64,000 nt of DNA from Schoenoplectus triqueter (taxonomy: Eukaryota; Streptophyta; Magnoliopsida; Poales; Cyperaceae). The notes under the pieces were generated by a model, which was not told the origin of the DNA, ran no database searches, and saw only the letters and a program-made list of their open reading frames with translations. Both the position numbers and the translations under genes were made by a program. The DNA is taken from assembly GCA_964058805.1 (NCBI GenBank), contig CAXKVV010000403.1:45687-109686 (forward strand), written 5' to 3'. This document shows positions 1-51,361 of this stretch, one piece after another; the first letter of the stretch is position 1, and the number at the start of each line of letters is the position of its first letter.

Positions 1-2697
1 TCCGAACGCACAAAACATGAAAACGGGACCCGACGACCTCGGTACCGCCGAAAACGAGTCCGGGCGCGCCAAACATGAAAACTGGACCCGACGCCCTCGA
101 TACCGCCGAAAATGAGTCCGGGCGCGCTAAACATGAAAACGGGACCCGACGCCCTAGGTACCGCCGTAAATGAGTTCGGGCACGCAAAACATAAAAATGA
201 TACCCGACGCCCTCGATACCGCCGAAAATGAGTTCGGGCGCGCAAAATAATAAAACGGGACCCGACGCCCTCGATATCGCCGAAAACGAGTCCGGGCGCC
301 CAAAACGTGAAAACGGGACCCGACGAGCTCGGTACCGCCGAAAACAAGTCCGGGCGCGCAAAACGTGAAAACGGACCCGACGCCCTCGGTACCGCCGAAA
401 ATGAGTCCGGGCGCGCAAAACATGAAAACGGGACCCGACGCCCTCGTAACTGCCGAAAATGAGTTCGGGCGCGCAAAACGTGAAAACGGGACCCGACGCC
501 CTCGGTACCGCCGAAGACCAGTCCGGGAGCGCAAAACATGAAAACGGGACCCGACGCCCTCTGTACCGCCGAAAACGAGTCCGGGCGCGCAAAACATTAA
601 AACGGGTCCCGACGCCCTCGGTACAACCGAAAATGAGTTCGGGCGCGCAAAACATGAAAACGATACCCGACGCCCTCGATACCACCGAAAATGAGTCCGG
701 GACCCGACGAGCTCGGTACCGCCGAAAACGAGTCCGGGCGCGCAAAACGTGAAAACGGGACCCGACGCCCTCGGTACAGCCGAAAACGAGTCCGGGCGCG
801 CAAAACATTAAAACGGGACGCGACGCCCTTGGTACCGCCGAAAATGAGTTCGGGCGCGCAAAACATTAAAACGATACCCGACGAGCTCGGTACCGCCGAA
901 AACAAGTCCGGGAGCGCAAAATGTGAAAACGGGACCCGACGCCCTTGAGACCGTCGAAAACGAGTCCGGGCGCACAAAACATGAAAACGGGACCCGACGC
1001 CCTCGGTAGCTCCGAAAACAAGTCCGGGCGCGCAAAACATGAAAATGGGACCCGACGCCCTTAGTACCGCCGAAAATGAGTTCGGGCGCGCAAAACATGA
1101 AAACGACACCCGACGCCCTCGGTACCGCTGAAAATGAGTTCGAGCGCGCAAAACATGAAATCAATACCCGACGCCCTCGATACCACCGAAAACGGGACCC
1201 GACGCCCTCGAGACCGCCGAAAACGAGTCCGAACGCACAAAACATGAAAACGGGACCCGGCGCCCTTTGTAGCGCCGAAAACAAGTCCGGGCACGCAAAA
1301 CATGGAAACGGGAGCCGACGCCCACTGTACCGCCGAAAATGAGTTCGGGCGCGCAAAATATGAAAACGATACCCGACGCCCTCGATACCGCCAAAAACGG
1401 GACCTGACGCCCTCATGACCGCCGAAAACGAGTCCGGGCGCCGAAGACATGAAAACTGGACTCGACGCCCTCGTCACCGTCAAAAACGAGTCCGGGAGCG
1501 CAAAACATGAAAACGAGACCCGACGACCTCGGTACCACCGAAAACGAGTCCGGGCGCGCAAAACGTGAAAACGGGACCTGACGCCCTCGGTTCCGCCGAA
1601 AACGAGTCCGGGCGCGCAAAACATGAAATCGGGACCCGACGCCCTCGGTACCGCCGAAAACGAGTCCGGGCACGCAAAACATGAAATCGAGACCCGACGC
1701 CCTCGGTACCGCCGAAAACGAGTCTGGGCGCGCAAAACATTAAAACGGGACCCGACGCCCTTGGTACAGCTGAAAATGAGTTCGGTCGCGTAAAACATGA
1801 AAACGATACCCGACGAGCTCGGTACCGCCGAAAACAAGTCCGGGCGCACAAAACGTGAAAACGAGATCCGACGCCCTCGTTACCGCCGAAAACGAGTCCG
1901 GGCGCGCAAAACATGAAATCGATACCCGACGCCCTCGATACCATCGAAAACGGGACCTGACGCCCTCGAGACCGCCGAAAACGAGTCCAGACGCACAAAA
2001 CATGAAAACGGGACCCGACGCCCTCACTAGCTCCGAAAACGAGTCCAGGCGCGCAAAACATTAAAACGGGACCCGACGCCCTTGGTACAACCGAAAATGA
2101 GTTCGGGCACGCAAAACATGAAAACGATACCCGACGCCCTCGATACCGCCGAAAATGAGTCCAGGACCCGACGAGCTCGGTACCGCCGAAAACAAGTCCG
2201 GGCGCACAAAACGTGAAAACGAGATCCGACGCCCTCGTTACCGCCGAAAACGAGTCCGGGCGCGCAAAACATGAAATCGATACCCGACGCCCTCGATACC
2301 ATCGAAAAAGGGACCTGACGCCATCGAGACCGCCGAAAACGAGTCCAGACGCACAAAACATGAAAACGGGACCCGACGCCCTCGGTAGCTCCGAAAACGA
2401 GCCCGGGCGCGCAAAACATGAAAACGGGACCCGACGCCCTCGGTACCTTTGAAAATGAGTTCGGGCGCGCAAAACATTAAAACGATACCCGACGCCCTCG
2501 GAACCGTCTAAAACGAGTCCAGGCGCGCAAAACATGAAAATAGCACCCGACGCCCTGGGTACCGCCGAAAACGAGTCCGAGCGCGCAAAACGTGAAAACA
2601 GGACCCGACGCCCTCGGTACCGCCGAAAACGAGTCTGGGCGCACAAAATATTAAAACGGTACGCGACGCCCTCGGTACAGCCGAAAATGAGTTCGGG
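1..2697 (-). repeat. 58-bp satellite, array A (inverted orientation)
   Basis: About 46 head-to-tail copies of a GC- and CpG-rich unit of about 58 bp. Landmarks in each unit on the minus strand are GTTTTGCGCGCCCGGACTC, TTTTCGGCGGTACCGAGG and GCGTCGGGTCCCG. The core CGGTACCG is an 8-bp palindrome containing a KpnI site (GGTACC). Units vary mainly by point changes, and a few are shortened by internal deletion. The orientation is opposite to the arrays at 22357, 30231 and 43789. The array ends abruptly inside LTR sequence at 2697/2698 and runs off the left window edge. Long open frames on both strands result from the lack of stops in the unit and are not genes. Confidence 0.95.
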
Positions 2698-3190
2698 ATC
2701 TCGGACATCGTAATGTTCATATCTCTTGGAGTCGACATATCTCTTCATGTTGATGTCGCAGCCTTGGTTATTCTTCAGCGAGCGTCAAGATGTTCTTGTC
2801 CCAACTAATCATTCTATATGTTGCATTACTTGTGCAAAATCACTATGTTGCCCTACACCCCTTGTGTGAGCGTATTTAGTCATGAGTTACTTGCTCATGG
2901 TAATGAGTCATTAAGATGTCACCTCTCTCGGACATCGTAATGTTCTTCTTCCTCAAAGTCGACATGTCTCTCCATGTTGATGTCGCAGCCTTGATTATTC
3001 TTCAACAAGCGTCAAGATGTTCTTGTCTCGACATATTTTCTCATGTTGCTGTCCAAGCCTTAGTTATTCTACGTCAAGATGTTCTTATCCTGACTAATCG
3101 TTCTAAATGTTATATCATGTGTGCAAAAATCCTCATGTTGCTCCACACCCCTTGTGTGAGCATATTTGTTCATCTCCATAATGTAAAAAG
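2698..3190. repeat. Tandem duplication of a ~215-bp block in LTR L1
   Basis: The block starting TCTCGGACATCGTAATGTTC occurs at 2699 and again at about 2931. Both copies carry GTCGACAT, CATGTTGATGTCGCAGCC, GCGTCAAGATGTTCTTG and CACCCCTTGTGTGAGC in the same order. The same pair is present in L2 (24540-25030), in the solo LTR (42070-42590, reversed) and in the element 2 LTR (47090-47690), so the duplication predates these insertions. No coding potential is evident. Confidence 0.8.
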
Positions 3191-4260
3191 CTTATTACAT
3201 AATATCTTCCATTATTATCTCTATTATAAAGATGAATTTATTATTTTTATTTATTTATTTTTTTTAAACTCTATTTATTTCTATAGAAAATTATTTACAA
3301 AAATAATAGGAAATGGGTTAGCTATTAACTAGAATTTTATTTATATTTTTGGGATCTTATAACAGCTAAAGTAGTAGAATTTTATTTATTATTATTTCTA
3401 AGCTCTATTTACTTACAAAATAATAGAAAATGGATTGGCTAGGATTTTTATTTGTATTTTTAAAACATTTATAATAGCCAAAGTAATAGAATTCTATTAT
3501 CATATATTTTTTTATCATTATTCATTTTGTAGGAATTATTTACAAAACAAAAAGGATGAATTAGCTATATTATTTTTATTTTTATTTTTAGGATCTATAA
3601 TAGCTAAAAAGGATATTACTATTAATATTCTATTCTATTTATTATAGTTTTCATTATATTTTTATTATTTCTATTTATTATCTATAGAAAAATATAAGAT
3701 TTTGTTTTATTACTATTATTATTATTTGAAATAACCACAAAGAATGAAATCCATTATTTCCTTTATTACAACTATTATTTTTATTATATTTTATTCATCA
3801 AAAATATATTTACTATCTATCACTATGATTATTTATTTATGTATGTTTTATATTATTTATTATATAAAAAAATATTAACATAATATTCATTTGATATTAT
3901 TACTTATTTTATTTATTAAAGAACAGAATTAATCTCATTATGTATTATTGGATATTATTATTATCAATATTATTCTATGGAAAATTATCAGAAAAGTCAT
4001 TAAAATATATTCAATTATTATTTATGATTTTATTTGAATTTTTGGAATTTTATAGTATTTAAAATGACAAATCAAATATACAAATATATGAAATGTCTAT
4101 TTGCTTTTGAATTATTTTAATATGATATTATTTTTAAAACTGAAATATTATTATACAAAAAAATACTGTGGAAAATAAGGAAATTTTAGAAACAAATTTG
4201 AGTTAATTTGGAGTTAAATAACATTTTTAAATGATTTATTTACTACTTATTTTAATTTTC
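3190..4260. other. AT-rich low-complexity stretch of LTR L1
   Basis: Dominated by TTA/TAT runs and poly-T with repeated motifs such as AATAGCTAAA and TAGGAATTATTTACAAA. Equivalent stretches occur at 25080-26110, 40930-42060 (reversed) and 47690-48890. Short open frames here are compositional. Nothing else is recognisable. Confidence 0.8.
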
Positions 4261-5040
4261 TGTTAACAATTAGGTTTAATTAACTGGGCCGAATTAATTT
4301 TCTTTTCATTTTGCTGCTGTTGGGCCCATTTCGTTATCTTTGTTCAATTGGGCTTGTTCTCATTTGGGCCGCAGTTCAAATACTGCCTTTAACCTGGGTC
4401 GTCAGATCGTTTTGAGATTAGTGCAAAGTTTATTCAAATGTTTCATTTGTACTTGGGCCGCTAGATTTAGTTGAGATACGTGTTTAATATATATAAGGCC
4501 CAGATCTTCTTCCGTTTAAATTCCCGAACTCTTGATGGATCTTATCCACTGATAAATCTTCAAGATTGGTGAACGCTTCAAGAATCGTGCAGAAGAGCTC
4601 CCCTCAGTCTCTGACTTCCCGTTGCATTGAGATCCGCGTGTAATGGCGTTCCCGACGACCGGAGCTCTCCTTCTCCGATCAGACCCATGCCTTAGCGTCG
4701 CCTCAGTGTGTGAGGTCCTTCTACATTGTCTGATCAAAGATCCATACGGCGATTGATGCTTATATGACTATGTCAGTTGAGGTGTACCAATTGAGACCGG
4801 TACCGAGATGATCTTTCTTCCAAATTCATCAGAATTAACCAAAATTCTTGACCATTTCAAGCTTATTGAGCATCGCCTTAATACATATGTATAATTTGGA
4901 TTGATTATAAGGTCTCTCATTTGCTATTAATCGAGTTGAAGCACTCGTGTACTGAAGGCATGAGACGCTAATTGGTACCGGTTCCAATTCTTTCTCAATT
5001 TGAGATGCTTGTTGAATTTGCATACTTGACTGATAACTCT

Positions 5041-5386
5041 CAGGCCTAAAGGCTCACCTAGGCATTGCTAGGGCCAGTGGCTCGCTGAGATTATAGGGCT
5101 ATTGATTAGTTTATTCTTGAAGCATCTCAATGGTATACGGGTTTGTACCAGATTCAACAATTTCAGTATAGAATTACAAAGCCTATGTTCTTAGCTGAAT
5201 GAATTATTCAATCAAGGTGATAGCAAGTTCATATTTCAATCATTATGCAAACAGGTACAAAGAAATCAATCAAGAAATGAAAATACACCATGGAAATCAT
5301 ATATTCATGAATTTTTAATATTTGTGATTAATCCAGGCCTAAAGGCTCACCAATTACTTTATAATTGGGCCAGTGGCTCACTGGAG
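5041..5386. repeat. Paired structured blocks AGGCCTAAAGGCTCAC ... GCCAGTGGCTC
   Basis: AGGCCTAAAGGCTCAC is followed by a short hairpin and then GCCAGTGGCTCRCTG, twice (5042 and 5335). The hairpin stems differ, CCTAG/CTAGG in the first (5057-5072) and CCAATTA/TAATTGG in the second (5350-5368), while the flanks are conserved. Both are repeated in L2 at 26891 and 27185. Confidence 0.6.
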
Positions 5387-5745
5387 ATTGTAATATCATT
5401 CAATAATCAATCTTGACAATAAGAAATTGCAAAATCAGAAAAGAAATAAAGGGAATTTCAAAGAGAATAGACCTCAATAGTAAAATTGATCAAGAAACTC
5501 CCATAAGTATGAACAAAATGTATCAAATAGCAAGGATTCCAGAGGAGAAAACAGAAATATATGCTAATTGAATCAATTCATATGATTGATTACCTCAAGC
5601 TTTGACAGAAATCTGAATTAATCGAATTCTTCTTATTAACTCTTGTAAAAGTCTCTCTCTTTCCTCTGTGATCACTATTGGGTGTGTGTGGGTATGTATA
5701 TGCTCTTAACTGCTCTTCTCCCTTTGCTGGTACTGAATTTCAACT

Positions 5746-5751
5746 TATATA
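5746..5751 (-). promoter_or_regulatory. Candidate TATA box B in LTR L1
   Basis: In the element's sense direction this reads GGCCTATATAAG. The same placement and core are found in L2 (27596-27601), the solo LTR (39523-39530, CCTATATAAAC) and the element 2 LTR (50478-50483), although surrounding sequence differs. On the other strand it reads TATATAGG, so it could serve the antisense gene instead. Conservation is seen; promoter activity is inferred. Confidence 0.4.
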
Positions 5752-6322
5752 GGCCTTAATCGGCCAATTTGCCCAATTGTTATTGGTTGAATGCCTTCCA
5801 CTCGGATTGCCACCTTGGATACATCTCCACCCTTCATTCTAATCGCTTGAACGGTTGTGATTGATTTGTGCTTCTTCTCTAACCATTTTCTGTTATGATC
5901 TTGACTGTGTCGCGATTCAATTGACTTCACACTCTCAATTACTCGTGTACTCTAACTGACAGGTGGGCCCAAGGTTATTAACTACTATTTAAACGCTCCA
6001 CGGCCACTCTTAATGCCATTTCACTCATTTACCATTTTCAATTTCACTAAGCCCTTTTCTGCCCCGTTTTCTTCTTTTGATCAATTAGCATTTCACACCT
6101 CGAATTGCCTCACCAATTCACCTCCATTGGCGTCGCCTTGCCCTAAAGGATCCACCTTGTAGTGCAATTTGATCTCCATAGCGTCAATTCACCTCTTCTT
6201 ATCAACTCAATTTCCGGTAATAACTCAACTCCACCTTTTGATCATCTCTTTTCGTCTGTTGATTTGATAGCACCTATCATCCGATCGTCTAATCATCACC
6301 ACTCGTTAGATCATCTTCAATC

Positions 6323-6488
6323 ATGGTGAGGCGTCAAGGGAAGAGAAAGATGCGAGCTTCGCTAGGATCGGGCAATGGCGAGAAGAAGGAGGAGGGAGAG
6401 GGCTCTTCTTCGCGCGTGGCTGTACCTGGCGTTCATAGACCAACGAAGAAGGCGCACTGGATGGAGCGAGATGACTTGCAAGAACCAG
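6323..6488 (+). CDS. Antisense gene exon 1 (LTR-borne, basic N-terminus), element 1
   Basis: ATG at 6323 opens 55 codons rich in Arg, Lys, Glu and Ser (starts MVRRQGKRKM, ends RDDLQEP), then CCAG|GTTCAT at 6488/6489. The exon is 3n+1 long, so it leaves one G, which matches the phase-1 acceptor at 8507 and would create a Val codon. The homologous exon in the solo LTR (145 nt) and in the element 2 LTR (139 nt) differs in sequence and length, yet both start with ATG, are basic, end in Glu-Pro and leave phase 1. The Lys/Arg runs could be a nuclear localisation signal. Alternative: a chance ORF in the LTR. The concerted phase and ending argue against that. Confidence 0.6.
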
Positions 6489-6769
6489 GTTCATTCTGTT
6501 TTTCATTTCCTTTTTAAATCGGATTACTTTGAGTAGAATGAATCAGCGGGATAGACTTGGTATACCATGTCAATCATGCACCTATACTCACATCTCTGTA
6601 TGCTGGGCCCCATTGTCAGATGTAAATGGGCTTAGGAGTAGCCATGTCAGCTCTTTTTTTTTTAATCATGCTAATGTGGCACGTTTCTATTGGCTGTTTC
6701 ATCTGATCTGGCAATATTTATATTAATCACCCTGTTTAATCTTGCTGACTGTGTATTAACCTGTGAGTG

Positions 6770-7175
6770 ACACATGGCACATAATAGGGCCCACATATAT
6801 AGCCTTGGTCCAATGGTTTGCTGCCATGTGTCTAATAGTTGTAATCCGAATGGTGAGGTGGCTGGCTAGAAAGATGCCATGTGGCACAGCTGAGTTGAGG
6901 TGGCTTGATGTAGCTGTGCCATGTGGCTTAGGGTTGGGTGAGATGGCCTCCTCTGGTTGTGCCGTGTGGCACAGAGGGAGTGTAGTGGACCACTGGTGTG
7001 ACGCCATGTGGCATAGGATGGGATGAGGTGGACCTGTCAGAGCTTACCACGTGGCATGTTGGTGGGGCCCACATGTCAGGTTAGTATGGTGGTGGGGCCC
7101 ACATGGCTGAGGTGGACCAATGGGGTGCTGACACGTGGCATGAGGTGGCCCAGTGAGATGCTGACACGTGTCACA
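6770..7175. promoter_or_regulatory. G-box-like palindrome cluster (GCCAYGTGGC) in LTR L1
   Basis: About a dozen copies of CACATGGCA, GCCATGTGGC or GCCACGTGGC within 400 bp. Three contain the perfect G-box CACGTG (7048-7053, 7132-7137, 7165-7170), two of them as ACGTGGC, the ABRE core. GTGGGGCCCAC motifs are interspersed. The cluster recurs in all four LTRs (28620-29025, 38020-38330 reversed, 51600-51870). G-boxes are known bZIP/bHLH sites in plants; the enhancer role here is inferred. Confidence 0.5.
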
Positions 7176-8188
7176 CCCTCTCTCTTCTCTGATTCTGTGT
7201 ATGTGTGTTTAGGATTCTCAGCTTGCACCCAGATGTGTCTCTATCCCCAAGTTGCACCCAGATGAACCCTTGATTGAATCTCAGCCCTTGATCAATCCAT
7301 TTATTCTGCTTTTATCTTCCCTGAATTTATTTTAATAGCTCCACTTATCCAAAAATTATGAAAATTTCACCAAAAATCCCTAAAATCATGATGATCATCC
7401 TTGTAATTTTTAATTCCATTTTTACCCCTGTCTCTCTGAATTAAAAATTCTTTTATCAAATAAACCATATTATTTCTTCTGAATTAATCCCAGATTTCAT
7501 TTGTAGCTCAGTGTCTCTGCCAATTATCTCTCTCTTGCAGAAACCACCCTAACTAAATACCAATTAGACTTATATTGATATTCATTAGGGTTTGATCTGA
7601 TCAACAGTTGATTACATGTCAACAGTTGATACAAATCTAGACTTGATCAGATGGTTGCTCCCAGCATTGGCACCTGATCAGTCTTGTGAAATTGACTTTC
7701 AATCCCTTAACATGAGGGTGACTTGGTCAAAGAACTGACTACTTATCAGTAATTGACACAAATCAAAGCATGGTTAGGTGGTTGCTCACAGCTTTGACAC
7801 CAGGTCAGCCTTGAAAGCAAAATCACATTTAAAATTTCTCATGACTAGTTGCATCAGAATACTAGCTTGGCATTGACATCATTTCATGTTACATAGGGAT
7901 TATGCTGCTTCAGTTCTTAGGGTTTGCTATAGTGATAGATTCTCAGGGTTTAATTCTGACTCCTTTAATAGGTCACTGAGGTGTGGGGTCCACCTGTCAG
8001 TGAAAAATGGTCACATGGATGACCCATCAAATAGGCTAGGTTTATGTTGTTAGATCCATCTACAAGGGACTGCCAGGTGGGTCCCACTTGTCAGAGAAAA
8101 TGTAATCAAATGGCTGACCCATCAGGAGATTTTCTCTCTCCGAAATCTCCCGAGGGTCAGCCACCTCAAATGAGTAGGAGGTGGTGGA

Positions 8189-8197
8189 GTATTTATA
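8189..8197 (-). promoter_or_regulatory. Candidate TATA box A near the sense start of LTR L1
   Basis: Reads TATAAATAC in the sense direction, about 195 bp inside the LTR. It is conserved in L2 (30038-30046), the solo LTR (36744-36752, and again in a duplicated copy at 37086) and the element 2 LTR (52878-52886). It fits the plant TATA consensus better than site B. If used, U3 would be very short and nearly the whole LTR would be transcribed. Confidence 0.5.
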
Positions 8198-8366
8198 TTC
8201 TCGTCTCTCACCCTGATATTTCCTTGTGGGATTAATGGATTTGTTCCGGGGTTAAGCAGCGACCTCTTCTGATTAGTGGGCCATCTCTTCCTTGACTTCT
8301 CTTCTTCCCTCTTCTTATGATTTATCATTAATCATTGATTTTATTTTCATTTATTCATCTATTCAT

Positions 8367-8384
8367 CCTTGGAATTTTTCAAGG
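8367..8384. repeat. Palindrome just inside the LTR terminus
   Basis: CCTTG...CAAGG lies 7 bp from the LTR end. In the solo LTR (36558-36574) and the element 2 LTR (53054-53071) it is a perfect 8+8 palindrome, CCTTGAAA...TTTCAAGG. In L2 the LTR is broken inside this palindrome. Confidence 0.6.
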
Positions 8385-8391
8385 GTAAACA

Positions 8392-8443
8392 AAGAGCCAC
8401 CCACCAAGACGAGCCTTGAACGCTCGAAAGGCTTGTCTTGGTG
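8392..8443. promoter_or_regulatory. PPT-like region and adjacent 16-bp hairpin, element 1
   Basis: In the sense direction GGTGGGTGGCTCTT directly precedes the 3' LTR (TGTTTACC), where the polypurine tract must lie; it is G-rich but not a clean purine run. Overlapping it is an inverted repeat, CACCAAGACGAGCCTT (8402-8417) and AAGGCTTGTCTTGGTG (8428-8443), paired over 16 bp with one wobble and a 10-nt loop. Element 2 keeps it at 53089-53130 with two wobbles. Confidence 0.6.
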
Positions 8444-8506
8444 CATTGTTCCTTATCATCTATCTCTTCATTTCTCATGACGTCTTCTCTTCTTCGGGTA
8501 TTATAG

Positions 8507-10546
8507 TTTCTTCTCATGACGCCATTCCGCATCGCCCCTTGAGTCATTACCATTCTTTTTACGAGGATCCTAGTGATTGGACTCCTCTCGTCTCAGTCAT
8601 CCGAGCGACTCCTGTCTACCCGCGAGGCGGCGGTTTATTCTTTAGAGATGATCAGCCTCATGACATCATGCCCCTTCAGCCCTTAGGCGTCGCTTCTACA
8701 GCTCCTTTGACACATCTCCTGGGCAAGGAGATTATTGACGGGGAGGCTCACAGATGGACCACTGCTCCCTTCATCACTCCCTTAGAGTGCCATGGCTATC
8801 AGCTAGAGTGGACCCGATACATGCTCATGCGGGAGGGGACTCTGCTCAGACGAGCCGGGATATATGACTCGGTCTTTTTGTCGATGTTCCATTATCATAT
8901 CGACACACCCTGGCTACGGCCCTTTTGTGAGAGGTGGAACTACTCCACCAACACTTTGTTCATCGATGACCGAGAGCTGACTCCGACCCTCCTGGAGATA
9001 CAGCAGTTGACCGGGCTGCCGATCTTTGGCCATTTCTATGACGAGTTCATGGTCTCACCCGCTGACTCGGGAGACTTCACTCGATTCCCGCCTTCTTTGC
9101 GGAGGACTTATGAGATCTATTATCATCTACGGAGGGGGCATCCCGGAGTTCCATTCAGGCATTGGATTGCCTATTTTACCGACCGGGTCCATACTCGCCC
9201 TATGGGCTTGGCTTCCACCAGAGATCTATTTGGTACAGGTCGGCTCGAGATTTATCATGACGGCCCTATCCCTTCTCAGGATACCCTGTGTTCATATGAC
9301 GTGGATCGGGAGACTTATTTGACAGCTTTCATCTCTTGGTGGATTTGCTATTTCTTATTACCTAGCTCCCCCGCATACACCATTCGGCCTTCGGTATTCA
9401 TCATGGCGAGCCTGATCGCGCGTGGCGACAGGATTTCTTTGGCCGTGCCTGTACTGGCCAACATTTATAGATGTCTCCGCGGTCTGACTTCATCTCGTAG
9501 TCCTTCACAGTGCCAGGAGCTGATTCCATGGCATCTGATTAGCGGATGGCTCCATTTACACTGGTCTGGCTCATATGATCCCGGCATGGCAGTTACGCTG
9601 CGGGACCGTCTACCCTTATTGAGTGACTTAGCTGGGGTGCAGCCAGCTTCATTGACTCCGGAGGCTGCTCAATATAGATTCTTTAGGAGCCGAGACCATC
9701 TGCGCTTCTCTCGAGATAGATCAGTGGCCCGTGGGACAGCTAGGGTTGCCGACAGGATGGTGATTGACGGCAGGGTTCCCTCTTCTGACTCTTCTAGCAT
9801 CCGAGCCAGGCCTATCGACTTGGAGTACCTGATCAGTATTCGTCAGGGCTTCCTTCCCCTCAGATTGGGCGATTATATGTTCATCGAGCCCTATTCGCCG
9901 CATCGATGCGCACATCAGTTTGGCTTGGATCAGGATATTCCAGCGCCTCTTCTCCGCCCTATATCACTGGCGGCCGATTTGGAGGGTATCGGATGGTGTT
10001 ACACTCACCTCTTCCGACTAGGCACAGGCACTCGCTACCAGATGGCATCCACTTCTAGGGCTTCCACCTTCTCGAGGCGTTATCAGCAGTGGTATTATGA
10101 GGCTATTCGCTCTTACCAGTCATATACTCCTCCGGTAGTCGTCCGGAGTACATGTCCGCGAGATGACCAGCCTCTATTAGATGGTACTATCTCACGTGAT
10201 CGCAGCCCTTTCCCGGCCATTGCCGTCGAGCCTGTCGATTTTCAGGGTTTAGACAGCCGATTTTCTCATGCACCTGTTAGGACTATTCTTACAGGTATAC
10301 TTTATCACCCTTTCAGATTATTTCCCTTTGATAAGCCTCATCTCATCTCGACCAATTCTCTTTTTGGTTCAGGGTTGGCTTACGAGTATGATCATGCGGA
10401 GCCTGGGTTCTCAGTCCCTCGTCCACGAGTAGTTGGCGTTCATTCTCAGCCACCTGTCGAGCCACCGGCTCCAGCCGCCATGGGGAGAGATCGAGACGGC
10501 GCCTCTCAGCCGCCTTCCCCATCTCCTTTTCCTTCTCCCACTCTGG
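8507..10546 (+). CDS. Antisense gene exon 2: plant mobile domain (aminotransferase-like), element 1
   Basis: The frame is open from before 8416 to the TGA at 10561. I start it at the acceptor 8507 because the first in-frame ATG is not until 8668, while codons upstream of 8668 are conserved in element 2 with mostly silent changes. Typical PMD features are RRAGIYDSVFLSMFHYH, then FCERWNYSTNTLFIDDREL, then LTGLPIFGHFYDEF, followed by a hydrophobic Trp-rich block (FISWWICYFLLP) and SGWLHLHWSGSYDPG. The C-terminal part is Pro/Ser-rich. The donor is CTGG|GTGA at 10546/10547, phase 1. The family is recognised with confidence; the biochemical activity of PMDs is not established and the aminotransferase label is historical. 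Confidence 0.85.
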
Positions 10547-10624
10547 GTGATTTTCTTTACTGACTCGCCTATCCTTATTCGGGCGCACTTCATTTACAGC
10601 TTCTAATTAAGGTTTATTTTCCAG

Positions 10625-10732
10625 CTCGCGGTACTTCTCCTATAGAGGTAGCTAAGGATGACATCATAGCAGATTCACCAGCGCCGGCGAGCACTGCCCT
10701 TTCAGGATTTTGCACCGACCTTGCCGTCGCAG
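10625..10732 (+). CDS. Antisense gene exon 3, element 1
   Basis: A 108-nt exon between TTTTCCAG|CT and GTCGCAG|GTTC. In the spliced frame it reads ARGTSPIEVAKDDIIADS and continues to FCTDLAVA with no stop. Element 2 has an exon of exactly 108 nt at 55310-55417 with a similar open translation (ARGTSSVEAARNDIIADL). It is too short to stand alone, and its conservation supports the splicing model. Flanking introns are 78 and 73 nt. Confidence 0.65.
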
Positions 10733-10805
10733 GTTCGTGTGCATCATTTAATACTTAGTTGCCAATATGCATCAGTATTTCCATCCTTACATGTAGATTT
10801 TGCAG

Positions 10806-11246
10806 GCCCTGAGGCTGATGACATGGCATCTCCACACCGCTCGGAGTCTTTCTTTTATGACGGTCCTGCCTCACCGTCGATCTTGCTGGTACCCACTGGA
10901 GACGGTGACTCATTTGATGTGGTTTTGGGGCCGGTGCTTACTCTTGCACGATCAGAGGAGGCTTCTTTCGAGCAGGGGAGTCCATTGGCTGTCGAGCCCG
11001 CAGGCGACGAGCCACTCTTGATCGAGGGAGGGCCATCTCATGCCTCTTCATCCCCCGACGGGCAGCCTCTCATGGCTACAGATGGCGGAGTCTCATCAGA
11101 TGCTTGGGTAGAGGATTCGACTGAGCAGGCTACAGTCGATTATGACTCGGAGCTGGATGAGAGTTGGCTAGTGGAGCAGCTTTTCGACAGCCCAGAGACG
11201 GAGGTCCCGGCTAGCGAGGGTCTCACCGAGCCTCATGCCTCTCCCG
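10806..11246 (+). CDS. Antisense gene exon 4: acidic linker, element 1
   Basis: Starts after TTTTGCAG at 10805 and reads GPEADDMASPHRSE, followed by an acidic Ser/Pro/Glu-rich stretch with DYDSELDESWLVEQLFDSP near its end. The donor is CTCCCG|GTACC at 11246/11247. Element 2 has 417 nt here (55491-55907), an in-frame difference of 24 nt. The region looks disordered, and no domain is recognised. Confidence 0.65.
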
Positions 11247-11321
11247 GTACCTTATATTTCCTTTGTTATTTGCCCATATTTTACTTTTCATGTACTTATG
11301 TTTTTTCATTTTATTTTGTAG

Positions 11322-11411
11322 CCGGGTCTGGTGCACCTGCGGGTCCTCCTGAGGCGACCGACATCCCTATCCCTGATTCAATCCCGCCAGTCTCAGGCGA
11401 CGAGGCGATAG
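11322..11411 (+). CDS. Antisense gene exon 5, element 1
   Basis: A 90-nt exon (AGSGAPAGPPEATDIPIP...) between ATTTTGTAG and the donor GATAG|GTTAG. The upstream intron is 75 nt, a multiple of three and open, so an unspliced reading also crosses it, but its T-rich interior and GT/AG ends mark it as an intron. Element 2 has exactly 90 nt (55983-56072). Confidence 0.6.
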   Translation, partial: PGLVHLRVLLRRPTSLSLIQSRQSQATRR

Positions 11412-11483
11412 GTTAGATCTTCTATTCCTTCTATTTCTTCTTTGATTATAACAATTTGTCTAACCCATTTGTCTTGTTTGCAG

Positions 11484-12094
11484 ATGTTACATCGAGGGAT
11501 GTGAAGCTCGCCTTGGCCGCGCTGGCGGATGCACTCCGAGACACCTTCTTCGGAGATTATCCGCTAGATTTTGAGATCCTGGATTCTCTGCCCGATGGCT
11601 TCTCCTTTGATTGGTATAGGCTGATGCGGGATACCATCGCGCCAGCTCTACTCGTCGCGCCTCATCTCGAGAGTACTTTCATTTCTAGGAGGTGTGAGGA
11701 GCTGCTCAGGGCTTATCAGGATGCGAGCTCTCTCGTATACCAGCACGAGTTGGAGATCCATGAGCTACGCAGGCATTTGGAGGCCGCTCGACTCCGCTAT
11801 CTCCAGCGGCTCTCTTCTTGTGCCACTCTCCGCTCCATGGGAGTCAGTGGTGGGCCCACTCGACTGCTCGTGCAGGAACTAGAGGACCACAGATTGTCAG
11901 TAGAGGGCTTCTCTCGACATCTGGCGGGACGTCTCTCGGAGCTGCAGACTCACTCGAGTGCCCGGGATAGTGCCTTTTCTCAGTTTTTGGATTTTGAGGC
12001 GGCTTCGGAGGAGGATAGGCACTCCCTCCATGCTTATCTGGAGACCATTAGTACTGTGCTATTAGAGCTGGAGTCCCGCTTTTTGGGCCTATAG
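11484..12094 (+). CDS. Antisense gene exon 6: C-terminal coiled-coil domain, element 1
   Basis: Starts after GTTTGCAG at 11483 and reads DVTSRDVKLALAALADAL..., ending at TAG 12092-12094. The middle (ELLRAYQDASSLVYQHELEI followed by HELRRHLEAARLRYLQRL) has heptad-like Leu spacing typical of a coiled coil, and the C-terminus (DFEAASEEDRHSLHAYLETI) is also helical. Element 2 has exactly 611 nt (56145-56755) with high identity. A dimerisation role is plausible, but no named family is recognised. Confidence 0.75.
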
Positions 12095-22292: not shown

Positions 22293-22356
22293 GCCTTGAG
22301 ATTGATCGGGGCGGGAGACGTATTGTCTCAACCTAGCGTTTCTAACGCTTCTCCTC
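22293..22356 (-). other. Remnant of element 1 leader upstream of gag
   Basis: About 64 bp of non-satellite sequence before gag, with a perfect 6-bp hairpin AGCGTT-TCT-AACGCT (22335-22349). No TGG-type primer-binding site is present. At 22357 satellite sequence starts directly (TGTTTTGCGTGCCCGG). The true leader, PBS and 5' LTR junction are therefore absent. Confidence 0.7.
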
Positions 22357-23355: not shown

Positions 23356-23699
23356 TGTGCGACCCTTTTTCGCGCGCTCCGCACCGCCGCTGGGCGATGG
23401 GATGCGGAAGAAGGACACGGAGATCCCTCCCAAATATGCATCCAAATCTTATATTCCATGAGTTTATTTTGATAGTCCCATCGGCTGGTTCTGCCGTTTA
23501 GAACGATCTAGATGCACATTTAGGGGGGTTTTAGTGATTGTGAGTTCTTGTAGATTCCGGTGGGCGCAAGCCCCCACCGTTAATTACCCTGGGCTACTAA
23601 CCTCGAGGCACCTCTGGATCTTTAAAAGAGAGAAGCAAATAGTATAGTTAAATGATGGTCAAGTGGTCGTCTGGGTTCACAAAAGGGGTCAATTCCAAG

Positions 23700-24435: not shown

Positions 24436-25079
24436 CTCACGATCTCGGGAGATGGACCAGAAGACAAACTCATCGACGGATGAGTTCAGTCTTGCTAGCT
24501 CAAATGGTCATGAATTACTTGTTCATGATACCGAGTCATTAAGATGTCACTTCTCTCGGACATCGTAATGTTCATATCTCTTGGAGTCGACATATCTCTT
24601 CATGTTGATGTCGCAGCCTTGGTTATTCTTCAGCGAGCGTCAAGATGTTCTTGTCCCAACTAATCATTCTATATGTTGCATTACTTGTGCAAAATTACTA
24701 TGTTGCCCTACACCCCTTGTGTGAGCGTATTTAGTCATGAGTTACTTGCTCATGGTAATGAGTCATTAAGATGTCACCTCTCTCGGACATCGTAATGTTC
24801 TTCTTCCTCAAAGTCGACATGTCTCTCCATGTTGATGTCGCAGCCTTGGTTATTCTTCAACAAGCGTCAAGATATTCTTGTCTCGACATATTTTCTCATG
24901 TTGCTGTCCAAGCCTTAGTTATTCTACGTCAAGATGTTCTTATCCTGACTAATCGTTCTAAATGTTATATCATGTGTGCAAAAATCCTCATGTTGCTCCA
25001 CACCCCTTGTGTGAGCATATTTGTTCATCTCCAAAATGTAAAAAGCTTATTACATAATATCTTCCATTATTATCTCTAT

Positions 25080-26110
25080 TATAAAGATGAATTTATTATT
25101 TTTATTTATTTTATTTTTTTTATTTTTAAACTCTATTTATTTCTATACAAAAATAATAGGAAATGGGTTAGCTATTAACTTGAATTTTATTTTTATTTTT
25201 GGGATCTTATAACAGCTAAAGTAGTAGAATTTTATTTATTATTATTTCTAAGCTCTATTTACTTACAAAATAATAGAAAATGGATTGGCTAGGATTTTTA
25301 TTTATATTTTTAAAATATTTATAATAGCCAAAGTAATAGAATTCTATTATCATATATTTTTTTATCATTATTCATTTTGTAGGAATTATTTACAAAACAA
25401 AAAGGATGAATTAGCTATATTATTTTTATTTTTATTTTTAGGATCTATAATAGCTAAAAAGGATATTACTATTAATATTCTATTCTATTTATTATAGTTT
25501 TCATTATATTTTTATTATTTCTATTTATTATCTATAGAAAAATATAAGATTTTGTTTTATTACTATTATTATTATTTGAAATAACCACAAAGAATGAAAT
25601 TCATTATTTCCTTTATTACAACTATTATTTTTATTGTATTTTATTCATCAAAAATGCATTTACTATCTATCACTATGATTATTTATTTATGTATATTTTA
25701 TATTATTTATTATATAAAAAAATATTAACATAATATTCATTTGATATTATTACTTATTTTATTTATTAAAGAACAGAATTAATCTCATTATTTATTATTG
25801 GATATTATTATTATCAATATTATTCTATGGAAAATTATCAGAAAAGTCATTAAAATATATTCAATTATTATTTATGATTTTATTTGAATTTTTGGAATTT
25901 TATAGTATTTAAAATGACAAATCAAATATACAAATATATGAAATGTCTATTTGCTTTTGAATTATTTTAATATGATATTATTTTTAAAACTGAAATATTA
26001 TTATACAAAAAAATACTGTGGAAAATAAGGAAATTTTAGAAACAAATTTGAGTTAATTTGGAGTTAAATAACATTTTTAAATGATTTATTTACTACTTAT
26101 TTTAATTTTC
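25080..26110. other. AT-rich stretch of LTR L2
   Basis: Near-identical copy of 3220-4260 with small indels. No gene is seen. Confidence 0.8.
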
Positions 26111-28172
26111 TGTTAACAATTAGGTTTAATTAACTGGGCCGAATTAATTTTCTTTTCATTTTGCTGCTGTTGGGCCCATTTCGTTATCTTTGTTCAATTG
26201 GGCTTGTTCTCATTTGGGCCGCAGTTCAAATACTGCCTTTAACCTGGGTCGTCAGATCGTTTTGAGATTAGTGCAAAGTTTATTCAAATGTTTCATTTGT
26301 ACTTGGGCCGCTAGATTTAGTTGAGATACGTGTTTAATATATATAAGGCCCAGATCTTCTTCCGTTTAAATTCCCGAACTCTTGATGGATCTTATCCACT
26401 GATAAATCTTCAAGATTGGTGAACGCTTCAAGAATCGTGCATAAGAGCTCCCCTCAGTCTCTGACTTCCCGTTGCATTGAGATCCGCGTGTAATGGCGTT
26501 CCCGACGACCGGAGCTCTCCTTCTCCGATCAGACCCATGCCTTAGCGTCGCCTCAGTGTGTGAGGTCCTTCTACATTGTCTGATCAAAGATCCATACGGC
26601 GATTGATGCTTATATGACTATGTCAGTTGAGGTGTACCAATTGAGACCGGTACCGAGATGATCTTTCTTCCAAATTCATCAGAATTAACCAAAATTCTTG
26701 ACCATTTCAAGCTTATTGAGCATCGCCTTAATACATATGTATAATTTGGATTGATTATAAGGTCTCTCATTTGCTATTAATCGAGTTGAAGCACTCGTGT
26801 ACTGAAGGCATGAGACGCTAATTGGTACCGGTTCCAATTCTTTCTCAATTTGAGATGCTTGTTGAATTTGCATACTTGACTGATAACTCTCAGGCCTAAA
26901 GGCTCACCTAGGCATTGCTAGGGCCAGTGGCTCGCTGAGATTATAGGGCTATTGATTAGTTTATTCTTGAAGCATCTCAATGGTATACGGGTTTGTACCA
27001 GATTCAACAATTTCAGTATAGAATTACAAAGCCTATGTTCTTAGCTGAATGAATTATTCAATCAAGGTGATAGCAAGTTCATATTTCAATCATTATGCAA
27101 ACAGGTACAAAGAAATCAATCAAGAAATGAAAATACACCATGGAAATCATATATTCATGAATTTTTAATATTTGTGATTAATCCAGGCCTAAAGGCTCAC
27201 CAATTACTTTGTAATTGGGCCAGTGGCTCACTGGAGATTGTAATATCATTCAATAATCAATCTTGACAATAAGAAATTGCAAAATCAGAAAAGAAATAAA
27301 GGGAATTTCAAAGAGAATAGACCTCAATAGTAAAATTGATCAAGAAACTCCCATAAGTATGAACAAAATGTATCAAATAGCAAGGATTCCAGAGGAGAAA
27401 ACAGAAATATATGCTAATTGAATCAATTCATATGATTGATTACCTCAAGCTTTGACAGAAATCTGAATTAATCGAATTCTTCTTATTAACTCTTGTAAAA
27501 GTCTCTCTCTTTCCTCTGTGATCACTATTGGGTGTGTGTGGGTATGTATATGCTCTTAACTGCTCTTCTCCCTTTGCTGGTACTGAATTTCAACTTATAT
27601 AGGCCTTAATCGGCCAATTTGCCCAATTGTTATTGGTTGAATGCCTTCCACTCGGATTGCCACCTTGGATACATCTCCACCCTTCATTCTAATCGCTTGA
27701 ACGGTTGTGATTGATTTGTGCTTCTTCTCTAACCGTTTTCTGCTATGATCTTGACTGTGCCGCGATTCAATTGACTTCACACTCTCAATTACTCGTGTAC
27801 TCTAACTGACAGGTGGGCCCAAGGTTATTAACTACTATTTAAACGCTCCACGGCCACTCTTAATGCCATTTCACTCATTTACCATTTTCAATTTCACTAA
27901 GCCCTTTTCTGCCCCGTTTTCTTCTTTTGATCAATTAGCATTTCACACCTCGAATTGCCTCACCAATTCACCTCCATTGGCGTCGCCTTGCCTTAAAGGA
28001 TCCACCTTGTAGTGCAATTTGATCTCCATAGCGTCAATTCACCTCTTCTTATCAACTCAATTTCCGGTAATAACTCAACTCCACCTTTTGATCATCTCTT
28101 TTCGTCTGTTGATTTGATAGCACCTATCATCCGATCGTCTAATCATCATCACTCGTTAGATCATCTTCAATC

Positions 28173-28338
28173 ATGGTGAGGCGTCAAGGGAAGAGAAAGA
28201 TGCGAGCTTCGCTAGGATCGGGCAATGGCGAGAAGAAGGAGGAGGGAGAGGGCTCTTCTTCGCGCGTGGCTGTACCTGGCGTTCATAGACCAACGAAGAA
28301 GGCGCACTGGATGCAGCAAGATGACTTGCAAGAACCAG
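28173..28338 (+). CDS. Orphan copy of antisense exon 1 in LTR L2
   Basis: Same 166-nt ORF and CCAG|GT donor as 6323-6488, with Met-Gln-Gln for Met-Glu-Arg near the end (28310-28320). Downstream there is no PMD exon, only LTR remainder and satellite, so it can splice only to a cryptic acceptor. Upstream on + strand lies TATA candidate B at 27596-27601. Confidence 0.5.
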
Positions 28339-30230
28339 GTTCATTCTGTTTTTCATTTCCTTTTTAAATCGGATTACTTTGAGTAGAATGAATCAGCGGG
28401 ATAGACTTGGTATACCATATCAATCATGCACCTATACTCACATCTCTGTATGCTGGGCCCCATTGTCAGATGTAAATGGGCTTAGGAGTAGCCATGTCAG
28501 CTTCTTTTTTTTAATCATGCTAATGTGGCACGTTTCTATTGGCTGTTTCATCTGATCTGGCAATATTTATATTAATCACCCTGTTTAATCTTGCTGACTG
28601 TGTATTAACCTGTGAGTGACACATGGCACATAATAGGGCCCACATGTATAGCCTTGGTCCAATGGTTTGCTGCCATGTGTCTAATAGTTGTAATCCGAAT
28701 GGTGAGGTGGCTGGCTAGAAAGATGCCATGTGGCACAGCTGAGTTGAGGTGGCTTGATGTAGCTGTGCCATGTGGCATAGGGTTGGGTGAGATGGCCTCC
28801 TCTGGTTGTGCCGTGTGGCACAGAGGGAGTGTAGTGGACCACTGGTGTGACGCCATGTGGCATAGGATGGGATGAGGTGGACCTGTCAGAGCTTGCCACG
28901 TGGCATGTTGGTGGGGCCCACATGTCAGGTCAGTATGGTGGTGGGGCCCACATGGCTGAGGTGGACCAATGGGGTGCTGACACGTGGCATGAGGTGGCCC
29001 AGTGAGATGCTGACACGTGTCACACCCTCTCTCTTCTCTGATTCTGTGTATGTGTGTTTAGGATTCCCAGCTTGCACCCAGATGTGTCTCTATCCCCAAG
29101 TTGCACCCAGATGAACCCTTGATTGAATCTCAGCCCTTGATCAATCCATTTATTCTGCTTTTATCTTCCCTGAATTTATTTTAATAGCTCCACTTATCCA
29201 AAAATTATGAAAATTTCACCAAAAATTCCTAAAATCATGATGATCATCCTTGTAATTTTTAATTCCATTTTTACCCCTGTCTCTCTGAATTAAAAATTCT
29301 TTTATCAAATAAACCCTATTATTTCTTCTGAATTAATCTCAGATTTCATTTGTAGCTCAGTGTCTCTGCCAATTATCTCTCTCTTGCAGAAACCACCCTA
29401 ACTAAATACCAATTAGACTTATATTGATATTCATTAGGGTTTGATCTGATCAACAGTTGATTACATGTCAACAGTTGATACAAATCTAGACTTGATCAGA
29501 TGGTTGCTCCCAGCTTTGGCACCTGATCAGTCTTGTGAAATTGACTTTCAATCCCTTAACATGAGGGTGACTTGGTCAAAGAACTGACTACTTATCAGTA
29601 ATTGACATAAATCAAAGCATGGTTAGGTGGTTGCTCACAGCTTTGGCACCAGGTCAGCCTTGAAAGCAAAATCACATTTGAAATTTCTCATGACTAGTTG
29701 CATCAGAATACTAGCTTGGCATTGACATCATTTCATGTTACATAGGGATTATGCTGCTTCAGTTCTTAGGGTTTGCTATAGTGATAGATTCTCAGGGTTT
29801 AATTCTGACTCCTTTAATAGGTCACTGAGGTGTGGGGTCCACCTGTCAGTGAAAAATGGTCACATGGATGATCCATCAAATAGGCTAGGTTTATGTTGTT
29901 AGATCCATCTACAAGGGACTGCCAGGTGGGTCCCACTTGTCAGAGAAAATGTAATCAAATGGCTGACCCATCAGGAGATTTTCTCTCTCCGAAATCTCCC
30001 GAGAGTCAGCTACCTCGAATTAGTAGGAGGTGGTGGAGTATTTATATCCTCGTCTCTCACCCTGATATTTTCTTGTGGGATTAATGGATTTGTTCCGGGG
30101 TTAAGCAGCGACCTCTTCTGATTAGTGGGCCATCTCTTCCTTGACTTCTCTTCTTCCCTCTTCTTATGATTTATCATTAATCATTGATTTTATTTTCATT
30201 TATTCATCTATTCATCCTTGGAATTTTTCA

Positions 30231-36550: not shown

Positions 36551-36689
36551 TGTTTACCCTTGAAAATTTCAAGGATAAGTAGCCGAAGAAATGAAAATAA
36601 AATCAATGATTAATGATAAATCATAAGAAGAGGGAAGAAGAGAAAGCAAGGAAGAGATGGCCCACTGATCAGAAGAGGTCGCTGCCTAA

Positions 36690-38596: not shown

Positions 38597-38741
38597 CTGG
38601 CTCATGCACATCATCCCTCTGACTGTGGACCCTACTCCGTTGCGGTTCACATGCGCCGAGGCCAACCCCTCCAGAGGCGCCTCCTTCTTCTCTTCTTCCT
38701 CTGCGTCTCTTTCTTCCGCGCGATTGATCGAGAGGCGCCAT
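38597..38741 (-). CDS. Orphan antisense exon 1 in the solo LTR
   Basis: ATG at 38741 opens 48 codons (starts MAPLDQSRGRKRRRGRR, ends QRDDVHEP), then CCAG|GTACGC. Length 145 = 3n+1, phase 1, as in L1 and element 2. The Arg/Lys run resembles a nuclear localisation signal. The N-terminal MAP matches element 2 and the ending RDD-EP matches L1, which supports homology of all three. Confidence 0.55.
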
Positions 38742-48890: not shown

Positions 48891-51222
48891 TCCATATTAT
48901 TACTATTCTGTTATTATTTAATTAATGGGCCTAATCTGGGCCGCCAGATCTGCTCCAAGATCAGCGCTCATCTTTCAGATAGTTCTATTCTTATTTGGGC
49001 CGCCGGATATGCCTCAAGATTAATTCGTATTAGATGGACGGCCCAGATTCATATCCATATCTCTGTTTAATGCGACGCTTTACTTCGCACGTCCGATCCC
49101 TTCAAGATTCACACACGCGCGTCAATATACGTGCTGCTGCGATTCTCTGACTCCCCAGTCAATATGAGTTCCAAGATTCGTGCTATTGGCGACGCCGGCG
49201 ACTGCGGCCACCTCCCTCCGATCAGGAGACTGCCTCAGGGTCGTCTTGCCGTGAGGGGTTGATCTACGGCGTTTGATTAATGATCTGTGCGGTGAATCAC
49301 ATGGTATGCCAATGCCAGATGGGTTGATTTGGTACCAATCGGTACCGAATCTCAATTCTTAGAAATTCAATGGAATTGATCAATACTTTGTACAATTAGA
49401 TGCCCTGTTTACATCGTTTATGTATGTTGACATGAATTAACATGATTATTGTAGCTCTAATTGACTCAATGAATCATACTTGACAAATGCTACTCGGGGT
49501 ACAGTGGTGCAGTTCGGTACCGAAGATATAGACACGAATTGTAACCAAATTTAACGATGTTTTTGGCAATTCAGAGTTGATAATGCATCGTTTAACATGT
49601 CTATAGGAATCTAGCTGACATTACATATCTAATTTGGATGATAATTACATTATGAGCTAATGGAATTGACACAGTGCAACATCGCCCGATACCGATCGTC
49701 TTTCACTCAAAATTCCGACTATTCATCCACTCTCAATGCGACTTATGCACCTAATATGCTTTATAATGACAATTATGACTGAGCTATATCCAATTATGCA
49801 TGCAATCTTCCCTAATCTCAAGTTTGGAACTAGATTGAACTGATACGACGCGACAACATGCAGAAAATCATGAATTCAGTCGAGTTCTCAAGTTGAAACT
49901 GAGATCAATCGACTTTGAACAACACTAAAACCTTAAATACATAAGATACAAACACAGACTGAGATGAATTTGGCGTTTAAACAAAGAATTAAATCAAGAA
50001 TCCCCACTGGTATCGAGTTCTCAGGTTTTAACCGAGATCAATCGATTTAACCAGCTCAATTACGACTTCTGTGATCAAGATTCACTCAAGAAATGAAGCA
50101 AATATAAGGATCAAATCAAGCAATTCACAAACAAAAGAGTAAAAAGGTGAAAATCAAAAGAAAAAGATAGAAAATTTGCTGACGATTATACTGTTATTAC
50201 AATGGAAGTTTGAATTACATACCTTTCTTTTGAATTACCACAAATCAAGCTTCCAAATCACTAATTGACTGTGATCCAAGAATGACAGAGCTCTTTTCTT
50301 GAAGGATTGAAGAAATTCAATCGAGTTCTCAAGTTTGCAACTGAGATCAATCGATTCTATTACTTCTTCTTCCTATTCTTGCTCTCTTTCTCTCTGTCTT
50401 TCACTATTAGCTCTCAAATGGGTGTTTCTATGCTCTATTCTTGCGTGTGTATATGTGTTCTCCATGAATCAGATGTTTATATAGGCAATTGGGATGGTGC
50501 ACCAAGGAATTAGAACTGTACACCACTCATACACCAACAATTGGACTTCCTTGGCTCATGGGTATGGTTCTTCAATTCTGTTAGTGCTTCTGTTGCGATG
50601 TGGGCCCCTATTCAAAGAATCCAAAGCTTAAGCCTTTCACTGTTGACCATGTTTGACTCCACTTCTTATCTGTTGCTAGAACCTTCTAGAGCATCTAAAC
50701 ATACTATATATACTCACTCTAATGCATCTAGGATACCCTTCTACCCTCTGCCATTGTTATCTTCTTCCAAAGCTCAAAGCTTTATTACCCGATTCCATCT
50801 CTTGGCCAAAAGCATAGCTCCTTCATCCAATTATCAATCTCCATCACTTCAACATCATCGTAAGAGTGCATAGAGGCTATAAGCACTGCCAATTCGAGTT
50901 TACAACACAAGGTCTTAATTTTCATCAATTTGCCCGATTTCATTACTTCATCTCAATTACTTCAATCTATTCCATAATTGCTGCCCCTTTCTTCATACAC
51001 AGTGTCGCCTAAGCAAGTGGAGAAGGTTTGCATTATCAATTTTTGATTTTGAAGTAGGAATTGAAGTGCTTCATCAATTGCCCGAGGTATTCATCTCTTT
51101 CAATCACCTTATTCACTCATTACTTCTCAATTTTGATCAATTACACATACTCTCCCATGTATAGGCTAGCTCTAGGTGAAAGGAATTGGAGTTGCGAGCT
51201 TTGGAGAGCTTGATCACCTCTA
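48890..51222. other. Mid-section of element 2 LTR, non-coding
   Basis: No convincing coding frame. It contains several short near-repeats (ATTCAATCGAGTTCTCAAG and GTTCTCAGGTTTTAACCGAGATCAATCGAT at 49880-50350) and the TATA B candidate at 50478-50483. Confidence 0.55.
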
Positions 51223-51361
51223 ATGGCGCCTTCTGCCTCGTCGAGAAGAAGAAAGAAGAGAGGGAGGGGAGAAGGAGAAGAGAAAGAAGGGGGTGCGCCT
51301 GGCGCACAGAGTCCACTACTAGGTGGGACCCACAGTCAGAGGCGCAATACAAGTGAGCCAG
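51223..51361 (+). CDS. Antisense gene exon 1 (LTR-borne), element 2
   Basis: ATG at 51223, 46 codons (MAPSASSRRRKKRGRGEG..., ends RRNTSEP), then CCAG|GTACAC. Length 139 = 3n+1, phase 1, matching the acceptor at 53193/53194. Basic, with an NLS-like RRRKKR. Compared with L1 (166 nt) and the solo LTR (145 nt), lengths differ only by multiples of three. Confidence 0.6.

Follow-up and report, generated by a model that had tools for sequence, protein, structure and literature searches.

Can a long terminal repeat (LTR) of a plant retrotransposon supply the first coding exon of a gene that runs antisense to the element? The question is raised by a stretch of 64,000 nt of Schoenoplectus triqueter DNA (GCA_964058805.1, contig CAXKVV010000403.1, positions 45,687-109,686 of the forward strand), hereafter the window. 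An initial annotation, made from this stretch, had proposed that a retrotransposon lying on its minus strand (element 1) carries an antisense gene with a start exon in the LTR, five phase-1 introns and a nuclear, coiled-coil protein product with a plant mobile domain (PMD). Copies found elsewhere in the same genome strengthened the overall observation, and we conclude that the antisense strand of an Ogre-like (Tat-group Ty3/gypsy) retrotransposon probably carries here an intron-bearing protein gene that is under selection and begins with an exon of the 3′ LTR. The antisense, coding and intron-bearing nature of the PMD gene and its LTR start exon find strong support in the copies compared; the intron count was not upheld, there being six.

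An antisense gene with seven exons

Element 1 is 27.5 kb long, on the minus strand, with LTRs of ~5.68 kb each. Minus-strand open reading frames (ORFs) to the right of the left LTR encode gag/protease, reverse transcriptase (RT) and integrase, and the interval from pol to the left LTR holds the PMD (PF10536), on the plus strand; the left LTR is therefore the 3′ LTR. The identity of the domain, as initially annotated, agrees with a PF10536 score of 89.4 bits against a cut-off of 34.9 (86.9 bits for the joined protein).

As seen from Table 1, the antisense gene of element 1 comprises seven exons and six introns, every intron being GT-AG and phase 1. Exon 1 with its CCAG|GT donor, the acceptor at 8506/8507 and the last four introns are as initially annotated. 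The missed intron (intron 2) lies within what had been taken as a single exon 2, at 8507-10546. With this exon the joined five-intron frame is indeed open in the window copy, for 1151 codons plus a stop, but each of the seven other full loci has an exon of 2039 or 2038 nt, and there the joined frame is broken. Both one-base deletions fall in a stretch that opens with a CAG|GTAYRC-like donor and closes with a TTCAG acceptor, its length being 78 nt in the window copy. We compared this stretch in the 8 full loci and in 20 more copies chosen from the list of PMD matches: GT and AG were present in 28/28, the length was 75-81 nt, and retention would shift the frame in 17. Intron 2 was hidden in the window copy because its 78 nt there are a multiple of three (3n) and stop-free. 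We also considered that most copies might be dead, frame-shifted PMD genes, and dropped this since both deletions sit in the 75-81 nt GT-AG stretch.

A 3n, stop-free intron 2 is shared by W1, L088, L089, L090, L091 and L093, of 14 copies listed. In the window copy an exitron-like isoform that retains intron 2, 26 residues longer, is possible from the sequence.

With six introns removed, 6/8 full loci are open end to end and would encode 1108-1125 aa (W1, 1125; W2, 1108; L013, L015, L017 and L023, 1117 each). Of the two others, L010 has stops and a lost acceptor, and L022 has a TAG inside the PMD exon and an exon 1 not caught by the pattern of the end-to-end count. The joined exons 1-7 of element 2, whose gene body is 91% identical to that of element 1, are open for 1108 codons; the 108-, 90- and 611-nt exons have equal lengths there, and the 441-nt exon is 24 nt shorter, both as annotated. 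Among the copies sampled, stops occur in exon 5 in 2/26 and in exon 7 in 4/26.

The frame of exon 2 has no ATG in its first 54 codons, the first being the 55th codon, and its relatives are conserved from the first codons, ahead of that ATG. The frame therefore requires an upstream start.

A coding start exon in the LTR

Copies were sought in a genome set of 82 Mb (2086 contigs) with the exon 1 region (40 of 76 candidates scored) and with the PMD exon (65 of 355 scored). An alignment of 20 loci from the former search with both LTRs of element 1 gave 22 rows, of which 22 are open with CCAG|GT and 21 are 166 nt long, one being cut by a contig end. The 65 PMD matches comprised 2 in the window, 5 already in the first set, 1 ending too early, and 57 from which upstream stretches were taken (59 stretches, as two loci were taken twice). 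Of these 57 PMD copies, 51 have an exon 1 homologue upstream, open in 51/51, the ATG being lost in one (L033).

Pooling LTR copies with an intact start gave 71, in which exon 1 is open and 3n+1 nucleotides long in 71/71, in spite of its varied length (nt): 139 (27 copies), 166 (26), 157 (5), 160 (4), 154 (4), 145 (3) and 142 (2). The four ORFs of the window, of 166 (two), 139 and 145 nt, likewise proved 3n+1, and the stops or random phase that a larger set of family LTRs might have revealed were not seen in the 71. Indeed, no copy has a stop in frame, whereas 59 and 57 copies have stops in the other plus frames and 13, 50 and 66 in the minus frames. The encoded peptide is basic, with a net charge of +3 to +11 (median +6). 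It had been described as always ending in Glu-Pro, which is true of the window ORFs; in the pooled set the last residue is Pro in 70 of the 71 copies, with Glu-Pro in 22 and Ala-Pro in 34.

We found a pN/pS of 0.34 for exon 1 in 31 disjoint pairs, with a p of 1e-21 that assumes independent sites and is a guide value only. Within the 166-nt class (all pairs, 15 representatives) the ratio was 0.45, the first 30 codons giving 0.30 and the remainder 0.63. In both large classes, column variation is lower within exon 1 and raised at third positions, a phase pattern absent ahead of the ATG and past the donor; the coding signal of exon 1 thus stops at the donor. Indels in the 166-nt class separate 55 and 73 of 105 pairs in the flanks and none in exon 1, the latter partly because a single length class was chosen.

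Could the agreement in phase be due to chance? A homology-free rule, which itself conditions on the frame (an ATG, 8 or more K/R among the first 30 residues, an open frame and a phase-1 donor), found exon 1 in 48/61 upstream stretches, compared with 0/61 on the reverse strand and a mean of 0.05/61 after 20 rounds of dinucleotide-block shuffling. In a test not conditioned on the frame, which used a narrow start motif, 20 of the 61 stretches lacked the motif and 2 had it but lacked an NCAG|GT donor (L030, L047); all 39 with both are 3n+1 and open. Together with the 3n+1 lengths of the 71 copies, these counts led us to reject chance agreement.

The encoded protein

The pN/pS of exons 2-7 was 0.10, 0.45, 0.41, 0.18, 0.32 and 0.12, respectively (pairs with pS of about 0.1-0.15), which, with the values for exon 1, points to purifying selection on every exon. 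Pfam detects only PF10536 in the joined protein. Transposase_28 (PF04195) is absent from it, and membership in that family was rejected. For the product of exon 7, a model based on 20 close sequences (mean pLDDT 67) predicts a helical hairpin, its two helices 60 and 50 residues long, which fits the coiled coil initially proposed, as far as the last exon is concerned. No relative of the PMD exon was found in the PDB by sequence search at E 1. Two protein searches gave 5 and 19 matches, mostly JGI contigs translated without introns; they are informative for the borders of exon 2 only, and none contains exon 1. The potato proteins P0004 and P0005 are 27-29% identical, with N-termini unlike the one encoded here.

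Start exons and bodies have separate histories

The LTRs of elements 1 and 2 align at 2698-4294 and from 6896 on, and exon 1 falls in the unmatched interval between. We compared start-exon types with a tree of the gene body, built from the exons and introns at its 3′ end (26 rows, of which 25 carry a type label). MVRR- and MAP-type exons require 8 changes on this tree versus a shuffled mean of 8.5 (8 or fewer in 46% of 200 shuffles), and all types together 13 versus 13.1. Well-supported neighbours of differing type include L096/L097 (100/100), L013/L104 (96/98) and L015 with L090/L091 (99/100). Since start-exon type is uncoupled from the body tree, the LTR module and the body have separate histories, and the conserved body has apparently received different LTR modules, each with a basic N-terminus, by reassortment. 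Since each module has a phase-1 donor, every combination stays in frame. The simplest reading would be recombination in or near intron 1, with breakpoints viewed in one pair. We lean slightly towards a broader view, in which the LTRs are interchangeable start cassettes (antisense promoter, 5′ leader and basic phase-1 start exon) that recombination swaps onto the conserved PMD/hairpin body, changing expression and the targeting peptide and keeping the effector constant.

Candidate transcription signals

TATA-like boxes at fixed distances suggest an antisense promoter in the LTR. Of 15 aligned type-A copies, 14 extend far enough, and all 14 have TATTTAAA at -337 relative to the exon 1 ATG; in type-B copies TATATATA stands at -518 or -519 (14/14). 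Downstream, AATAAA lies 230-238 nt past the stop in the four loci read (W1, W2, L010, L017). Given the candidate sense TATA box near 8190, exon 1 would be downstream of the sense start; this resembles HTLV-1, where R and U5 contain the starts of antisense RNAs (PMC3185765).

The sense TATA block of U3 is repeated ~246 nt farther from exon 2 in 5/8 loci (L010, L013, L015, L017, L022), which suggests a duplicated promoter module.

Table 1. Features of the antisense gene, its elements and their surroundings (window positions).
Feature	Position	Strand	Description
Exon 1	6323..6488	+	166 nt, ATG and 55 basic codons, in LTR; donor CCAG|GT, phase 1
Second exon 1 copy (5′ LTR)	28173-28338		166 nt; points out of element 1
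Intron 1	6489..8506	+	2018 nt, LTR into internal region; acceptor AG in 8/8 full loci
Exon 2	8507..10294	+	1788 nt, PMD (PF10536); 1788 nt in 8/8 loci
Intron 2	10295..10372	+	78 nt, CAG|GTATAC ... GTTCAG|G, phase 1
Exon 3	10373..10546	+	174 nt; same length and stop-free in 28/28 copies
Intron 3	10547-10624	+	GT-AG in 27/27 copies
Exon 4	10625..10732	+	108 nt in 27/27 copies
Intron 4	10733-10805	+	GT-AG in 25/26 copies
Exon 5	10806..11246	+	441 nt; 417 or 450 in other copies; length changes in threes in 25/26
Intron 5	11247-11321	+	GT-AG in 25/26 copies
Exon 6	11322..11411	+	90 nt in 26/26 copies
Intron 6	11412-11483	+	GT-AG in 26/26 copies
Exon 7	11484..12094	+	611 nt including stop; 611 nt in 25/26 copies
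Candidate antisense TATA box TATTTAAA	5986..5993	+	337 nt ahead of exon 1 ATG; consensus match only
Candidate sense TATA box TATAAATA	8190..8197	-	in 8/8 loci; consensus match only
Candidate poly(A) signal AATAAA	12333..12338	+	consensus match only
Left (3′) LTR of element 1	2699..8381	-	98.9% identity to 24554-30230
Right (5′) LTR of element 1	24554..30230	-	carries the second, outward-pointing exon 1 copy
Element 2 exon 1	51223..51361	+	139 nt, begins MAPSASSRRRKK
Element 2 exons 2-7	53194-54981, 55059-55232, 55310-55417, 55491-55907, 55983-56072, 56145-56755	+	
Candidate antisense TATA box of element 2 TATATATA	50705..50712	+	consensus match only
Exon 1-like ORF	38597..38741	-	145 nt, begins MAPLDQSRGRKRRRG
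58-nt repeat family regions	22280-23450; 30108-36555; 43790-46300; 1-2698		left flank inverted

The elements and their surroundings

Element 1 is Ogre-like, of the Tat group of Ty3/gypsy, by its very large size, its long LTRs, its separate gag-protease and RT-integrase ORFs and its antisense PMD extra ORF. The gag-protease (17919-22436) and RT-integrase (16122-17918) ORFs on the minus strand share a frame and are separated by a single stop. This stop is at the position where Ogre elements reportedly have a spliced intron (PMC6317226). Element 2 extends from ~47.1 kb to the window end, and the minus-strand exon 1-like ORF suggests a third element in the opposite orientation.

Between gag and the 5′ LTR, element 1 carries a 58-nt tandem repeat of the family that also makes up the long arrays flanking it; these arrays may have expanded from the element leader or may be the target of its insertion. 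The arrays on the two sides are oppositely oriented, and the outer LTR ends (2699, 24554) show no clear TG...CA pair on both sides and no obvious target-site duplication. The insertion site may be rearranged.

Alternative explanations

Several observations weigh against a functional gene with an LTR start exon. The copy samples, being ranked by similarity, are biased towards well-kept copies, and in some cases two rows come from the LTRs of a single element. Since ranking by score has this effect, we also examined the remaining low-scoring LTR matches (16 stretches, one a locus already in the sample): 4/16 have stops, 1/16 lacks the ATG, and only 11/16 have an NCAG|GT donor nearby, each of these with a length of 3n+1; decayed copies of exon 1 exist, as old insertions would predict. 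No exon 1 was seen upstream in 6/57 PMD copies: for L058 the stretch ran beyond the contig end, for L056 and L063 it is covered by oppositely oriented LTR sequence, and L034, L041 and L074 are unexplained. Pairwise identity of exon 1 in the 166-nt class (0.79) is not above that of its flanks (0.82, 0.83). Stops or lost sites occur in L010, L022, L089, L092, L093, L096, L102 and other copies, the structure predicted for the PMD exon is unusable (mean pLDDT 37), and the role assigned to the protein is based on analogy. A search for a processed copy with joined exons (170-base query, 40 of 141 candidates scored) gave piecewise matches and none of full length, which we grade as neutral.

Would two separate products explain the locus better? 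The LTR ORF could then be a stand-alone basic micropeptide, similar to ORF0, and the PMD protein would arise from a nearer promoter and an internal ATG of exon 2. Indeed, exon 1 ORFs meet a stop only ~9-18 codons beyond the donor, and TATTTATA lies on the plus strand ~325 nt upstream of exon 2 in 8/8 loci, although its reverse complement is better as a sense TATA box. This arrangement is nevertheless improbable, given that the exon 1 coding signal ends at the donor, that all seven length classes are 3n+1 there and fit the phase of exon 2, and that exon 2 is conserved upstream of its first in-frame ATG. We give even less credence to the antisense frame being a relic, namely a captured host PMD gene, open because the copies are young, with antisense RNA (perhaps by providing double-stranded RNA) mattering rather than protein. 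Retroelement antisense RNA can itself regulate, according to a review (PMC7264820), but pN/pS of 0.10-0.45 in every exon and the third-position bias of exon 1 imply that protein-level selection acted during spread.

Least credible of all is that the five-intron gene, with a 2040-nt exon 2 and 1151 aa, gives the normal product. Its frame is open in the window copy, where the 78 nt could be retained; yet it is open there only among the eight full loci, and intron 2 keeps GT and AG in every copy sampled in spite of the frame-shifting lengths of 17. Furthermore, ten metagenome relatives reach the intron 2 donor, and in nine similarity stops there, by eye, at ...LTG or ...IAG; in the close relative P0008 it runs ~10 residues farther, also by eye.

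A proposed mode of action

We therefore retain the seven-exon gene that starts in the 3′ LTR. Its transcript would start there and encode a basic N-terminus of 46-55 residues; splicing across the 2-kb first intron would join this start exon to a six-exon body of PMD, variable linker and helical hairpin, and the polyadenylated transcript would end near the AATAAA, for a product of ~1125 aa. The antisense direction would explain how six introns can persist through an RNA intermediate: replication is not expected to remove introns that run antisense to the genomic RNA, and so the protein would be made from integrated DNA only.

Judging from its basic N-terminus and from analogy, the PMD protein may be directed to the nucleus, and its most likely role, by analogy with the HBZ and APH proteins of HTLV, would be that of a nuclear regulator of the element, which may tune sense expression. 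In the silencing of transposable elements, the host proteins MAIN and MAIL1 work together with the phosphatase PP7L (PMC7156037, PMC5418596), and an element-borne PMD could thus compete with or redirect this module. That the protein engages or mimics the host PMD-PP7L module is a tentative suggestion, on the doubtful side, drawn from the host proteins; the gene model makes the action of element-borne PMD proteins on it testable. In addition, the exon 1 copy in the 5′ LTR faces the flanking repeat array, and insertions could give neighbouring DNA transcripts together with a coding start exon.

Comparison with known systems

Antisense accessory ORFs of plant retrotransposons have long been listed, in the literature seen, without an exon-by-exon gene model; here start, splicing and protein length are given. 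Our literature search found antisense PMD ORFs in Ogre as already known, and no plant retrotransposon gene with an LTR start exon, nor this intron set or start-exon reassortment; earlier notice in the 2011 extra-ORF or 2013 gene23 papers is possible.

The nearest relatives by content are the PMD ORFs of Ogre and the Gypsy PMD-A clades, which share with the present gene a PMD ORF in a plant Gypsy element. The ORF is present in 57% of Ogre elements, the antisense PMD extra ORF being frequent and not universal (PMC6317226); clades PMD-A1/A2 are confined to Gypsy elements (PMC5418596), and PMD was the commonest extra domain in a survey (PMC9289625). The available parts of the Ogre and PMD-A reports (PMC6317226, PMC5418596) contain no model with an LTR start exon, six introns or reassorted start exons. 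With Grande gene23, RIRE2 and Retand aORF-3R the gene shares an antisense position between pol and the 3′ LTR. The gene23 product is nuclear, with an upstream promoter (PMC7264820, PMC11963269). Retand antisense ORFs are mostly Transposase_28 (PMC11963269), in contrast to the present protein, and the word "intron" does not appear in the available main texts on gene23 and the Retand ORFs (PMC11963269, PMC7264820). The host genes MAIN, MAIL1 and MAIL3 have the PMD in common with it, but lie outside elements and lack an LTR start exon.

By layout, the closest system is HTLV-1 HBZ, together with APH-2 to APH-4. The HBZ antisense transcript begins in the 3′ LTR and is spliced, the major form having its ATG in LTR exon 1 (PMC3185765), and its product is a nuclear regulator of the provirus (PMC10186651). 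Sequence comparison predicts the same arrangement here, with an ATG-bearing coding exon of the 3′ LTR joined by splicing to exons of the internal region. The proteins and elements are unrelated: HBZ is a small bZIP factor, whereas the present gene has six introns and encodes a PMD protein of 1108-1125 aa. Membership in the HBZ family proper (deltaretrovirus bZIP) was rejected, the joined protein containing only PF10536 and the element being of gypsy type. If our reading is right, the antisense strand of an LTR can code for protein, and a non-retroviral element has acquired the HBZ layout independently.

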